Shown piece after piece: positions 54,871-64,000 of a stretch of 64,000 bases of DNA (its first letter is position 1; each line of letters opens with the position of its first letter). Both the position numbers and the translations under genes were made by a program. The notes beneath the pieces were generated by a model, which saw nothing but the letters and a program-made list of their open reading frames with translations, ran no database searches and was not told the origin of the DNA. The stretch is from Rhizophlyctis rosea. Taxonomy: Eukaryota; Chytridiomycota; Chytridiomycetes; Rhizophlyctidales; Rhizophlyctidaceae. The stretch lies in the NCBI GenBank assembly GCA_027596075.1, contig JADGJC010000156.1, positions 1-64,000 of the forward strand, in the 5' to 3' direction.

Positions 54871-57841
54871 ATGGCAGACACCAAGGAGAAAGAGAAGGAC
54901 GCTAACTTGCGTCAGCGCAAGGGGGAGAAGAAGCAGGAGACGGAGAAGGTCAAAGCTGTGACCGAAGTCCCTGCTCCTGTGGCCATTGTTCCTCTGGAAG
55001 AATCTGTAAGTCGGGCGCGTATTCCTAGGCCTTTGCAAGCTCATCACCGTAGTTGGCGCGAGTTCACCTTGAAGGTATCATAGGCCAAGACAAAGCCAAA
55101 GGTCACTCCTGCTCAGGCGGCTCAACTCGCGCAACTCAAATTGAAACAAAGAGAATGGGCCTACAACATTTCTCTTGTCGTTGTAACGATACTTTCCTTC
55201 CTCACGCGAGTTTACCGGATCAATGAACCTGCTCAAGTGGTGTACGTGGGATTAACAGCTCAATCATCCACCTTCTCTGTTAACTCATGTCCGATGCTTT
55301 GCAGGTTCGACGAGGTTCACTTTGGAAAGTTCGCGTCATACTACCTGCGCCGTACATACTACTTCGATGTACACCCTCCACTGGGGAAACTCCTGTTGGC
55401 GGCAACGGGTTGGCTTGTTGGGTATGATGGACACTTCCTGTTCGATAAAATAGGAGACGATTACATTGAAAACAACGTCCCTTACGTTGCTTTGCGGATG
55501 ACTCCTGCAACGGCTGGTGCATTGATTATTCCAGTCGTGTTCTTGACATTGAAGGAGATGGGAATGAGTGTGGCTGGAGCAACCTTCGCGGCATTGCTTC
55601 TTGTGTTTGGTGTGTATCAATGAAGCGGGTTGCGGTTGGTGACGATGAAGAAGTTGACCGACTGTTCACTTTAGATAACGCCTTGATTGCTCAATCGCGT
55701 TTGATCCTGCTGGATAGTATGCTTACTTTCTTCGCCATTCTGTCCGTTTACACCTGGGTGAAGTTCTACAAGCAGCGCCATGTGTAAGTTTTGCAACCAG
55801 CGTCCATACATCGCTCGTGTATCTCACTCATATCTTGATAACAGGCCATTTACCTTCAAATGGTGGTTCTGGTTGTCGATGACTGGTGTGTCCTTGGCAC
55901 TCACCACGGGGTAAGCTTCAAATATTTTGTTGGCCGTCTTCCGAAGTATGAAAACTGTAAAACTGATCTGACCCAATCTACAGTGTCAAGATGGTTGGTC
56001 TTTTCACGGTTGCATGCGTTGGTATTGCGGTTCTTTTCGACTTGTGGGAACTATTGGACATCCGCCGTGGGCTCACAATGGTATGCCTCACGGAAATCAT
56101 GTTCAACGAAGAATGAGATATGCTAATCATATACTTGAATGCAGCGTCAAGTTGGAAGACATTTTGCCGCGCGAGCATTGTGCTTGATTTTCTTGCCAAT
56201 TGGCATCTATCTGTCATTCTTCTACATCCATTTCGCCATCCTCTCGTACAGTGGTCCGGGAGACGCTTTCCACACTCCTGCATTCCAAGCGGAATTGAAG
56301 GGAAGTTCCATGAATATCGGCACTCCAGGTATGCCCCACAGATCTTCATCTTATATCTTTCTTTCCGATTATCAAGCAGTTGCTGATTCGCCCCGTGAAC
56401 CCTAGCAATCCCATACCATGCCAACATCACATTCAAGAACCGGGATCTGAAAGTATATCTACATTCTCATGGCGAACACTACCCGCTACGATATGACGAT
56501 GGTCGTATCAGTAGTGAAGGACAACAAGTAACCGGTTACCCTCATCGTGACGCCAACAACTTCTGGGAGCTTCTTCCGGCCGAGCCAGAATTCGCCGGCG
56601 AGTCAGCCGAATACGAACTGGACGAAGAAGAGCAACTCAAAGGAATCCGATACCTCAAACATGGCGATCAAGTGCGTCTTCGTCACCCTAGAACTGACTC
56701 GTACCTCATCACGCACGATGTTGCGTCCCCCTTGACCCCGACCCATATGGAGATGACTACCGTTAAGCTCGATGTCGCTAACAAGCGGTACAATGAGACA
56801 CTTTGGAAGGTTTTGTTGACGGAGGAAGATGATGACGCGGAGGGCGTCAAAGTGCGGGCGCGTCGGGGGCATTTGAAGCTTGTCAATGCGCAGCATAATG
56901 TGGCAGTGCACACTCATAAGGGAGTGTTGCCTGCGTGGGGTTTTGCGCAGAATGAGATCAACGGGAACAAGAATACCAAGGAACCGAAGAACATTTGGTT
57001 CGTGGATGAGGTTCAGCATCCTAGGATCGTAAATGGTGGGTGGAATCGTGTTCCAGATGTCGAATGTCGAATGTCGGGATTGTAGTTGACTGATGGATCC
57101 TTCTGAATCTATACAGGTACCGAGGTCGGTGAGGAGGATGAATCCAAAAAGAAGAAACAGCCCGAGAAGAAGCTCTCCTTCCTCCAAAAGTTCTTCGAAC
57201 TCCAATCCGTCATGATCAGCGCCAACGCCGGACTAGTCAAACCCCACCCATACTCCTCCACCCCCATCACCTGGCCCTTCGTCCTCCGCGGCATCTCCTT
57301 CTGGGAAACCAAAGAAGGCCTCCGCCAAATCTACCTCCTCGGCAACCCTATCATCTGGTGGCCCGCAATCGTCGGCACCTTCATGTACGTCGCCATGTGG
57401 GTCCTCGACCGGATCTTCCTCCGTCGCGGCGTGGACGACTTCCGTCCTCCCGTTCGAAGATGGTGGGACCGCAGCATTGGGTTCGTCTTCCTTGCCTGGG
57501 CGTTACATTGGCTTCCGTTCTTCCTCTTCGAACGCAAACTCTTCTTACACCATTACCTGCCGAGTTTCATTTTCTCTGTCATGACTGCCGCATTGGTGTT
57601 TGAGTTCATTGGACGGGTAGCGCTCCATGATGCGGCGAAGGTTGCCCTTCAGACTCCGATTACGGTTTGGATGAAGAGTCAGGGTGGGCCGGTGTATAAT
57701 GCGGTGCTTGTGGCGTTTTTGGCGTGTGCGGTGGGGAGTTTTTGGTATTTTTCGCCGTTGACGTATGGGACGGGCTTCCCGGATGTGGAGGCTATTAGGG
57801 CGCATAAGTGGTTGACGAGTTGGGATTTGCAGCATGCGTAA
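54871..57841 (+). CDS. PMT4: Protein O-mannosyltransferase, PMT4/POMT1 type
   Basis: ER enzyme that transfers mannose from dolichyl-phosphate mannose to Ser/Thr of secretory proteins. Exon 1 54871-55005, exon 2 from 55084, about nine exons. Seen: charged cytosolic N-terminus, first membrane helix (ISLVVVTILSFLTRVYRI), the catalytic lumenal loop FDEVHFGKFASYYLRRTYYF with the Asp-Glu pair, then DVHPPLGKLL. Further in come NALIAQSRLILLDSMLTFFA, the MIR repeats (YLHSHGEHYPLRYDDG, IRYLKHGDQVRLRHPRTDSY, RRGHLKLVNAQHNVAVHTHK), and C-terminal helices with LHHYLPSFIF and GPVYNAVLVAFLACAVGSFW. The Asp-Glu pair and MIR motifs are intact, so activity is expected. Confidence 0.93.
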
Positions 57842-59658: not shown

Positions 59659-62600
59659 ATGCATTTTCTGCAGTCAAATTCCATATGGCTCGGGCCAATC
59701 GCCATTTCAGTACTTTGCGCTGCGCTTGGGTATGCTTGTGAGATAACTGGGTTCTCTTGCACAGTGTGTAATGTCTCTTCCCTATAATTCACTCATTCCA
59801 CTTCGCAGGAGGTGACGGCAGAGTCCACCCTCGCGATGTACGTATGGGAGCGACGCTGTTACAGCCCTCAATTTTGCAGGTCGCCCCTCCCTAACCTCCA
59901 CAAATCAAATGTAGTGGGACGGCAACAGCCCATGGGGAACAAACACCCTTCCACAACGTTCAGCTGTAGATGCCGCAATTGCCCACGGATTCAACACTCT
60001 CAGAGTGCCTATCGAATGGGTGCGTGTTAAGTGGTGACTTAGCACTTGGAATGCTTTGGAAGCATGCTGTTAAATCCCTACGCAGGAATGGATCCAACCA
60101 ACATTTTCGCAACCCCTCGACGAAAACGTCGCGGGTCCTCTCGACAGCCTCGTCAACTACATCACGTCAAATTCATCCCACTACGCAATCATAACCCTGG
60201 AATCCAAATATCAGTTCATGGTATACACTGCGCCCAACATGGTCTCGTCAAATCGATCCGCAGCCCTCTGCGACCTCTGGACACGGCTTGCAGGTCGATA
60301 CAAAAATCACCCCAATGTGATTTTTGAGATTGCAAATAAGCCATACATGAACTTCACGGCGGCGACGTGGAATAACCTGGCGAATAATGTCATTGATGCC
60401 ATTAGGTACAATGCGAGTGCGACTAGTCAGTTGATCATTGTACCGAGTGTTGGGGAGAGTATGGTGGATTGGTTCTTCCATCAGCATTTGAATAGGGGGT
60501 TGCCTCCAGCTGAGGGTGAGTGCCAAACGATCAAATTCTTTCATACATTGACACTCAATAGGATTCAACCCACTATCCTCCTCTCAGTAATGCAAAACAT
60601 CAACGACCCATACAACAACTTCGCCTATGGTTTCGAAGTACACCAAGACATGTGGAACAGCGGATGGGAAGAATGTACTGTCCCTACAACCATCTTACGT
60701 CGACTCACGGTACCTATGTCATGGTTGAAGCTACATCAGAGGAAAGCGTTTTTGTTCTGGTGGACGAATAAGGCGAGCTGGCAGTGTGTTGCGATCATGA
60801 GGAGGGTTTTGACATTTTTGGCGCTCAATACGGATGTGTGGATTGGGAATTCGTATGGTGCGCCTGCTTGGTGGATTAATACTGGGGGTATGTGTGTTGT
60901 TGCGCCGTTTGGTTGGGTCAAAATACCATTGCGATTAAGCTTTTTTGGGTGTCGGGAGGATGCGTGAGAGCTAAGGATACAGGTCTCCAAGTGTTTCATA
61001 TGGATGTAAAGCTGATCCTTACCGTTCTCCATACTTTTCCCAGCTGGCCCCACACCAAATCTCCAAGTTATCGACCAATTTGTAAACGGCACATTCTCAA
61101 ACGACCTCGCAAACCTCCGAAACGACCCAAAAGCCGTAGACAAGGAGGGATACCCTTTGGACATCGATCCAGGTTCCATCACCCCTGATGTGTGGAATGT
61201 GAATCAGCAGATGGAATTCCTTATAGAGCACAGTATTTCCAATTCGTCCGTCTTGAACAACCCGATTGTTGTGTGGGATTATACGGGCAACCAGTATGAA
61301 CCCAGCTGTGATGTGTTGCTGCATGCTATGATGGATTATGTTGCGTGGAGTAATGGGTCGGTGGCGATGGCTTATTATAGTATTAGGTATGGAGGTGGGG
61401 ATGGAGATCAGTTGTTGGATGGGTCTTGGGCGTATGCGCCGAAACCTGGTTAGTCATTGCGTATCGAAAGGGAGGCGGTGGTCAAACCGTTTTCATTAAC
61501 GAATTGATCCATCATGATTGTCAAATCTAGATATCGTCATCGACACCTTTGACAAAATCAGTTATCGCTACTCAGTGAATGACACAGTCGCACTCTCGGG
61601 TTTCCTTACTGAATACAGTCAACAGACTGGAAGTGCATTCCCAGATAGGTTCATCCGACAGGTATGCATTTCCTCTTTCTCTCTCACAAAATTTCCCACA
61701 CCTCACCACCACCATCAACCAGACCATGTACCAATACAAATTCAACGACGAATGGCACGCGGCTCCTTACAGTAATTCTCTCCTTTACATGATGTTCAAC
61801 GTTACAACCTTTCGGGCACTAGACCTTCCCTTCCCCCCACCATTCAACCTCACCAAATCCCAATGGACATGGCCCCGCTTCGTCGACACGGTCCAAAAAA
61901 TCAGCTCCTACATCTCTGTCCCCTTCTGGATGTCCTGCGGTTCCGGTAAAGACGACTTCCACATGGCCAACATCGCGCGTACATATGGTGGCAGCCTAAT
62001 CAACACCGACGGCAAGTGTGCTCTCAACTCCCCTGCATTCATTCAAGCATTCAAGGAAGTTATCGTCCCGCTGTTTATGCCGCCGAATAACGCTACGCCC
62101 CTGCCGTGGAAATCGAACACTATTGCGGAAATTCAGGCTATGCCTATTGTGGATGATCCGTTAAGGTTTCCTGATTCGGCATTTGCGTATGACGATAGTT
62201 ATAATGGGAATCCTGCGAATACGATTGGGGCGCCGGACGTGTATAATGGGATTTGGTTCACTACGTCGAGTATTATTAAGAAGGAGAGTATTTGGAATAC
62301 GGATGGTACGAAGGATTTGGCGGTTGGGTTGTATCCTGGTGAGAACATTTACTTTTTTGGTGGTCTGAAGTTCTAAACCGTTCTGACGTATGTCCATCAT
62401 TTCCTGTCCTGCCAAAACAGGCGATTATACATGGCTAGGGGGAGCGGGGATGTTCATCAATCGGAATTCGTCAGTTCCCCATGATTCATGGGAGTTCATG
62501 ACATTCCTTTACGACAACAGAAACAACGACTATATGCTCATGCTGTCGTACTTCAGTTCCAACCCGTCGGTGTTGAATGATGTTGCTGTTGACCCGACAT

Positions 62601-64000
62601 TGACGACTCAGTATCCTAATTTTTGGAGTATTGTGAATTTGCAGGTATGTCGGGGTTGGTGCTTGAAGTTTTGATCCTGCAACGATTGGCGATTGACTTT
62701 TTCTTTGCTTGTACTTTTGTGTAGACTGTCTGGGCTGTGCCACGTTAGTGTCTTTTGGAAACTTTGCAATACAACATTTCGTTCTCTCCCGCTGACAGTC
62801 CTAATCATCAACCAGAGCGATACCCGTTAAGCAATTTGCCAGTTGAATCCCGCGTTTTGAAAAAGTACCCGGTAAAGTTCGTCACCCAATCACCCGTTCC
62901 GACTCGCAACTTATCTCGGTCGTCCGCCACCCAACACTCATTTAGATCCGCATGCTCCTCGCCGAAACTCTCGTCAAAAACATCACCATCGAGGAAGAGG
63001 TTGATCGAGTATGCATTGCCTTGGACTACAGCATTCTGCATACTTGCGGAGTTGAGGACTTGGAACTCATTTCGCAAGGGTGCGGTAGGACCAGACAGGA
63101 GGTGTGGGAATTCGTGTATCGACGGTGGGATGAGAAGGGACAGTATTTGTGTCGTATTGATTATACTATTAATCCGCCAGGTGGGAATCTTTGAGGTTTA
63201 CGGGATTTAGGAATTGTGGGATGGGTTCCGATTTTCGACTAACTCAAAATCTTTGCGCTTGGCGACAACGCAGATCCCGTGGTCTTGCCATGCCCATACA
63301 TTCCGCATGGTAACAGTGCGGGTGTTGCGATTTACTTCTTTGCCGTATGCGCGATCGTCTTTCTTTGTGGATGCCTCTTTCTTCTCTTCCGATGGCGGAA
63401 ACGACCTGCGATTGCGTCTGCGTCTTATGAGCTTAGGTATGTATTGTACACACAGGCATGGTTGTATTCCATTCTTGCGCTCACATTTTACTGGATTAGT
63501 TCATTCATGGTTGCTGGTGCGATTGTTTCGAACTTCTTCCCGCTTTTGTCGGTTGGAGCACCTACAACGGGCAAATGTATCGGCAGAGTCTTTATGGTGG
63601 TTTTGGGATTCTCAATGTTGATTGGTGGATTGATTGTTCGATTGACTCAGTAAGCAGTGTCTTTCCCATCCGTGGAGCTGTCTCGAGTCGATGAGGCGTT
63701 GCGGCATTGAATATATGAACCTCACTTACCCTTCCTCCGTCTCTTCTTTAGGATATTCACTATGTTGCACTATGGTAGGATGTATCGAAAAGGAACTGAT
63801 TTGGCTGCCCTATCATGGCTGGTGGTCATTGTGCTGATCAATTTGGGACTGCTGGCTTGGTGGTAAGCTCCCCTGCATATCGGAGATACCGTTATCCAAG
63901 CGTTTTTTCCAACCTTTCACTGCGCAAATCAGGGCCTTATTCAGGAATCCCGGTTTGGAAGTGATGGATTTCACATTGCCTAACTATCCGTATGACCACT
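59659..64000 (+). CDS. Class C GPCR with dead GH5 and solute-binding ectodomains, partial
   Basis: Runs off the right edge. Exon order (by eye): signal peptide exon from 59659 (WLGPIAISVLCAALGYA); GH5 cellulase-like part 59812 to about 60970 (WDGNSPWGTNTLPQRS, AAIAHGFNTLRVPIEW, HPNVIFEIANKPYMNFTAAT, FAYGFEVHQDMW, LALNTDVWIGNSYG); solute-binding part from about 61050 to 63180 (NPIVVWDYTGNQYEP, WPRFVDTVQKISSYI, IARTYGGSLINTDGKCALN, YTWLGGAGMFINRNSSVP), with a Cys-containing linker after it; then class C seven-helix domain from 63280 (SAGVAIYFFAVCAIVFLCGC, RWRKRPAIASASYEL, RVFMVVLGFSMLIGGLIVRL, TQIFTMLHYGRMYRKG, WLVVIVLINLGLLAWW). In the GH5 part the acid/base Glu of NEP is Lys (NKP) and the nucleophile position is Trp. 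Introns keep frame between domains, supporting one protein. Predicted plasma-membrane nutrient receptor. Confidence 0.75.

Follow-up and report, generated by a model that had tools for sequence, protein, structure and literature searches.

A predicted class C receptor of Rhizophlyctis rosea bearing a pseudo-cellulase and a solute-binding-protein domain

The end of a 64,000-nucleotide stretch of contig JADGJC010000156.1 from the soil chytrid Rhizophlyctis rosea (hereafter, the window) holds a locus that raises the question of whether a single gene joins a GH5 (cellulase-like) domain, a bacterial-type solute-binding protein (SBP) domain and the seven-transmembrane (7TM) helices of a class C G protein-coupled receptor (GPCR) and, if so, what such a receptor could do. 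The reading of this locus as one gene running from the start codon to the 7TM domain, in the order GH5, SBP and class C 7TM, was confirmed at the level of sequence, and the GH5 module is a conserved pseudo-cellulase that is predicted to be catalytically dead. The encoded protein is probably a carbohydrate-sensing class C receptor, in which a dead GH5 domain would be placed on a type II (Venus-flytrap-like) SBP domain and both on a GABA-B-like 7TM domain.

Gene model and public annotation

The final model comprises 17 exons on the plus strand, from 59659 to C64:64687, and encodes 1,250 amino acids; the gene extends past the end of the window, and its 3' remainder was read from the same contig (C64, 91,692 bases). 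All 16 introns (45-156 bases each) are of the GT-AG type, with a single open frame kept throughout, in agreement with the plus-strand exon chain from 59659 with frame-keeping introns that the initial annotation had described. Exon 1 (59659..59763), which contains the start codon and a signal-peptide-like hydrophobic stretch by hydropathy (residues 1-27), has an uncertain 5' splice choice, and the weak point of the model lies here, as two splicing options for exons 1 and 2 were near-equal in score. The preferred one has exon 2 at 59809..59841 (splice score of 15.15 and codon score of 4.36), and the alternative combines 59659-59737 with 59812-59837 (splice score of 14.76 and codon score of 0.84). 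The GH5 match was unchanged under either option (85.2 bits). Within the 7TM domain, an in-frame intron of 63 bases (63437..63499) is free of in-frame stops, so that a reading based on open reading frames silently gains 21 residues; its removal raised the PF00003 match from 63.1 to 77.9 bits, and the public protein P0003 also has it removed. A first hand-made model of 1,260 residues was rejected because its 5' end was wrong and this intron was retained. The agreement of a Viterbi gene finder in 13 of 16 exons is a consistency check only, as the program was partly trained on the introns and codons of the hand-made model.

The public annotation (HDV00) cuts the gene in two within the SBP domain. 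P0004 (HDV00_002489, Rhizophlyctis rosea) is identical to our model at residues 169-709, begins at an internal methionine in the GH5 domain and terminates by reading into an intron within the SBP domain (62339..62420), across which the counterpart from the strain HK097 is continuous. P0003 (HDV00_002490, Rhizophlyctis rosea) is identical at residues 747-991 and 1001-1250, and begins at an internal methionine in the SBP domain without a signal-like start, as judged by eye. The architecture is invisible in the P0004 record because this protein has no Pfam match at E ≤ 0.1, and an NCBIfam scan of P0001, P0003 and P0004 found nothing. In the diverged strain HK097, a single predicted protein (P0001, HK097_009272), which is 54% identical, has the same domain order and carries GH5, a sub-threshold SBP_bac_1 match (PF01547, 22.6 bits against a cut-off of 26) and 7tm_3; P0001 is itself a prediction, in which the beginning of GH5 and helices 1-2 are missing. 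The homologous-protein searches (7,990, 7,991 and 5,169 candidates scored), which cover near relatives only and permit no inference on absence elsewhere, yielded P0001, P0003 and P0004 of R. rosea and one JGI protein with GH5 (P0002).

Domains of the predicted receptor

The GH5 domain (residues 49-313, exons 3-5, 59921..60853) was found by PF00150 with an E value of 1.8e-22 and 80.6 bits against a cut-off of 23.5, and its nearest solved relatives are cellulases (PDB 5hnn, E 4.9e-30). To this extent the GH5-like fold of the initial annotation was borne out, but there is more to the domain than an enzyme fold, since two strains have other residues in place of both its catalytic glutamates. At the catalytic acid/base position, glutamate has given way to Lys166 (60338..60340; NEP to NKP), and at the catalytic nucleophile position to Trp282 (60758..60760; GEF/GEW to FWW). 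In an alignment with 13 bacterial relatives and four GH5 loci of the same genome (C520, C60, C79 and C314, picked for their easily read open frames), the acid/base position was glutamate in 16 of the 16 relatives with a residue there (C314 being gapped) and lysine in both receptors, and the nucleophile position was glutamate in all 17 aligned relatives and tryptophan in the window and HK097 receptors. The DxHN segment has likewise changed in the two receptors (TLESK and VITSK); Arg76 is retained in the window receptor, and the HK097 model lacks that part. Thus, both receptors are predicted to be pseudoenzymes, because both catalytic glutamates have been replaced in both strains.

A GH5 tree, which carries a long-branch warning, placed the two receptors in one clade (100/100) with a stem of 1.95 changes per column and tips of 0.24 and 0.64, and the long stem and shorter tips suggest early fast change that has been slower since. 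We compared the parts of the window and HK097 proteins, with the figures given in the numbering of the first model and with the P0001 gaps left out: the identity was 57.8% for GH5 (126/218 aligned), 60.3% for SBP (238/395), 52.2% for 7TM (107/205), 50% for the membrane-proximal part (43/86) and 37.5% for the linker between GH5 and SBP (27/72). This linker (residues 314-397, 60854..61261, split by an intron at 60888-61043) is the least conserved extracellular part. Because the dead GH5 domain is conserved like the SBP and 7TM domains, whereas the linker is less so, there may be constraint on GH5 for a non-catalytic role, although the evidence is thin; a digestive enzyme appears to have been co-opted as a component of a sensor.

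For comparison, we used 26 loci of the same genome (L034-L059), which were chosen by 7tm_3 except for L053, chosen by an SBP match, and of which the proteins are predictions of the same Viterbi gene finder. A profile of the receptor GH5 found no match among these loci (best 0.9 bits), and, by coordinate comparison, only the window's match among the 26 PF00150 matches in the genome falls in a 7tm_3 gene. A candidate second GH5 copy near residues 398-440 was rejected, as this stretch aligns with the start of the SBP domain of the paralogs.

The SBP domain (residues 398-798, exons 6-11, 61262..62841) was recognized by way of paralogs. The two profiles named in the initial annotation, PF01547 and PF13416, found nothing in the window protein (E up to 10, or 1). 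When compared with solved chains at E up to 10, the SBP segment alone had one match, a sugar ABC transporter (E 0.15), and a profile of the window and HK097 segments had six, the best of which (E 0.44) was a substrate-binding protein, the other five being unrelated. Three loci of the same genome (L034-L036, on C69, C79 and C618) are predicted to encode SBP and 7TM without GH5, and a profile built from them, with the window excluded, matched the window segment over profile positions 7-390 with 152 bits (E 2.7e-45), the highest score among 2,000 shuffles being 8.2 bits. This profile also matched 16 of the 26 loci at E < 0.01, including its three builders. PF01547 was found in three of the five members of the family alignment (best E 1.5e-14), and at E ≤ 1 the five-member family profile matched 52 distinct PDB sequences, the best being 5ysb (Lin1841, E 1.2e-9). 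By name, these are ABC-transporter proteins that bind solutes, sugars or substrates, barring the bare names Lin1841, Lmo2125 and CbpB, and 4g68, which is labelled just "ABC transporter". Read exon by exon, the genome had five PF01547 matches at E ≤ 0.1, two of which are beside 7tm_3 matches (C69 and C79), and no PF13416 match. As the direct searches with the SBP segment were weak, the assignment rests on the paralogs; the label is well supported by kinship in sequence, not by fold, so that the SBP part of the initial annotation stood through the paralog and family profiles.

A membrane-proximal cysteine-containing region (residues 799-899, 62842..63311) leads to the class C 7TM domain (residues 900-1149, 63312..64000 and on to about C64:64381), for which the PF00003 match of 77.9 bits (E 1.3e-21) compares with a cut-off of 33.5. 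Hydropathy alone indicated seven hydrophobic segments over residues 906-1151 when overlapping windows were merged, and the best solved relative, found by a profile of five, was GABA-B2 (E 2.8e-25); the class C (GABA-B-like) helices were therefore correctly anticipated. The ANF-type Venus flytrap is usual in animal class C members; PF01094 (ANF) was absent from the window protein and had no match in the genome at E ≤ 0.1, exon by exon. An unrooted tree of 19 receptors, which took 17 of 20 loci (L049, at a contig end, and L053, with no 7TM, were dropped by hand and L045 by a length filter), placed the two GH5 receptors in one clade (100/100), outside a group of ten rows in which the ectodomain is longer (100/100); the tree did not settle which receptor is their closest sister. 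A third-loop FNE motif, which was defined from the paralogs and the general role of which is taken as background, is kept by all three closest paralogs (L034, L035 and L036) and is absent in the window and HK097 receptors.

Proposed function and competing explanations

The most plausible guess at the function of this receptor is a saccharide sensor, and we infer its ligand and signalling as follows. In its cleft, close to the membrane, the dead GH5 domain would bind without cutting either a plant glycan of the cellulose type or the like, or an oligosaccharide freed from such a glycan, and the SBP lobes would close on a sugar. Through the cysteine region, this closure could be relayed to the 7TM helices and on to a G protein, by which a cellulose-degrading fungus would be informed of the presence of its substrate. 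It is possible, although we put it forward only tentatively, that this is the first GPCR in which a plant-cell-wall-degrading enzyme has been made into a dead glycan reader, with GH5 reading the polymer (cellulose or a related glucan) and SBP its breakdown product, so that the two inputs would check that the substrate is both present and under digestion; a class C partner might be needed.

Several results weigh against the reading as a sensor encoded by one gene. The conservation figures come from one strain pair, with 59 GH5 and 70 seven-helix residues unpaired in P0001. Neither by itself nor combined with HK097 did the window SBP segment give a significant SBP match, and an AlphaFold2 prediction for the HK097 protein, made from an alignment of four rows, reached a predicted local distance difference test (pLDDT) score of 32.5, which made the model unusable. 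Normal G protein coupling is in doubt because of the absence of the FNE motif in both GH5 receptors, and two genes are annotated at the locus.

The last point would be explained if HDV00_002489 (part of GH5 and part of SBP) and HDV00_002490 (the rest of SBP and 7TM) were truly adjacent genes, as P0004 and P0003 are predicted as separate proteins identical to parts of our model. However, the split falls inside the SBP domain, P0004 ends in an intron, P0003 lacks a signal-like start, and the HK097 protein and the paralog models, which are our own gene predictions, are continuous over the split point, making this explanation very unlikely. That the locus is a decaying gene or an assembly artefact has nothing in its favour beyond the poor public gene models, and it is the least likely of all, given the intact frame over 17 exons and the diverged HK097 counterpart on a contig of 110,727 bases. 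At least as improbable as the two-gene explanation is hydrolysis of glycans by GH5 through another mechanism, to which the strong family match and the retention of Arg76 in the window receptor could point, because the two glutamates on which the retaining mechanism depends have been replaced in either strain, and DxHN is rewritten.

The alternatives that keep the gene as one and GH5 as dead deserve more weight. The dead GH5 domain could be a spacer, dimerisation or adhesion module, with sensing by SBP alone: adhesion requires no catalysis, and SBP can act alone, because the closest paralogs are SBP and 7TM without GH5. The conservation of GH5 like that of SBP, and not of the linker, fits a specific role instead, yet it does not tell binding from structure, and we consider this alternative rather unlikely. 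By analogy with GABA-B1, which requires GABA-B2, the GH5 receptor might also be a ligand-binding partner that is not G protein-coupled alone and requires a second class C receptor. The FNE motif, absent in both GH5 receptors and present in L034-L036, and the many potential partners in the genome are consistent with this, but the argument comes from one motif, and only 12 of the 26 paralog-locus models fit the FNE pattern, 14 failing to do so, several because the models end early; such dependence on a partner is rather unlikely. A carbohydrate-sensing receptor remains the reading that we prefer.

Genome setting and comparison with known systems

We counted 65 exon-level 7tm_3 matches in the genome, together with at least six G-alpha loci and 151 CBM1 matches at E ≤ 0.1. 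Among the other class C receptors, L041 carries a PstS-like domain (PBP_like_2, PF12849, E 1.9e-21), and L046 and L047 have a PstS-like domain by eye; all three have an EGF-like stretch before the helices. L039 and L059, neighbours on C135, have long repeat-rich ectodomains that appear beta-helix-like by eye, and a Pfam scan of L039 found only 7tm_3. In a second group (L037, L038, L040, L042-L045, L048, L050-L052, L054, L057 and L058), an additional N-terminal domain of some 200 residues precedes, as judged by eye, the SBP-like region. Scans of three members (L037, L038 and L048) gave this domain no match above a Pfam cut-off; it may be another carbohydrate-binding module. L053 (C175:7500-13500) encodes an SBP_bac_1 protein that has no seven helices; by eye, its start is signal-like and it has a single hydrophobic stretch at the C-terminal end, and it is possibly a membrane-tethered solute-binding protein in a fungus. 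In the neighbourhood of the receptor gene, a protein O-mannosyltransferase is encoded upstream (56399-57841, plus strand; MIR PF02815, E 2.3e-15; PMT_4TMC PF16192, E 6.8e-60), and the downstream neighbour, from C64:65348 onward, is a multi-span membrane protein that we take to resemble the TMEM184/LAZ1 kind.

Cellulose sensing at the cell surface of zoosporic and filamentous fungi is an old question, for which this receptor is a concrete testable candidate, and it would bring GPCRs into the small set of sensors derived from dead glycoside hydrolases. It also illustrates how genes of this kind can be lost from view when automatic annotation splits them.

With respect to known systems, the receptor resembles GABA-B in its seven-helix domain and differs from it in having an ectodomain of GH5 and a type II SBP instead of a type I (ANF) flytrap, and also in the lack of the FNE-type third-loop motif of the fungal paralogs. 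It shares its sequence family with GH5 endoglucanases, for example the enzymes of Xanthomonas and of its own genome (C520, C60, C79 and C314), but its GH5 domain lacks both glutamates and is fused to a receptor. An inactive glycosidase fold, of GH1, is also a receptor part in Klotho, which is an animal co-receptor for a protein hormone. In the literature searched, which was thin on subscription journals and bioRxiv, we found no paper on a GH5 domain on a GPCR. The phrase "previously undescribed system" in the initial annotation was nevertheless too strong, because, in the parts of the reports available to us, class C receptors with an SBP had been described in early fungi, as SBP_bac_1 receptors of the glutamate family (class C) in Allomyces in 2012 (PMC3251606) and as SBP type II class C receptors, with putative sugar-binding domains and no ANF, in gut fungi in 2016 (PMC5168858); within the literature searched, novelty is confined to the GH5 module. 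The gut-fungal and Allomyces receptors share with ours the class C helices and a bacterial-type solute-binding ectodomain, whereas the same parts of these reports describe them with SBP, pectin-lyase-fold, EGF, ANF and other domains and no GH5 (PMC5168858, PMC3251606), so that the window gene adds a dead cellulase. As for a hydrolase module used as an outside sensor, the available part of a report on RsgI6 of Clostridium thermocellum, a membrane-spanning anti-sigma factor the GH10 sensing module of which has very low activity and binds polysaccharide, provides a precedent, although that system is bacterial, uses GH10 and involves no GPCR (PMC4711584). A Pfam search of the window protein found only GH5 and 7tm_3 and no anti-sigma domain of the RsgI type, and the likeness between the two is one of mode of working only, with a glycoside hydrolase module serving, in our receptor as predicted, to sense carbohydrate outside the cell.

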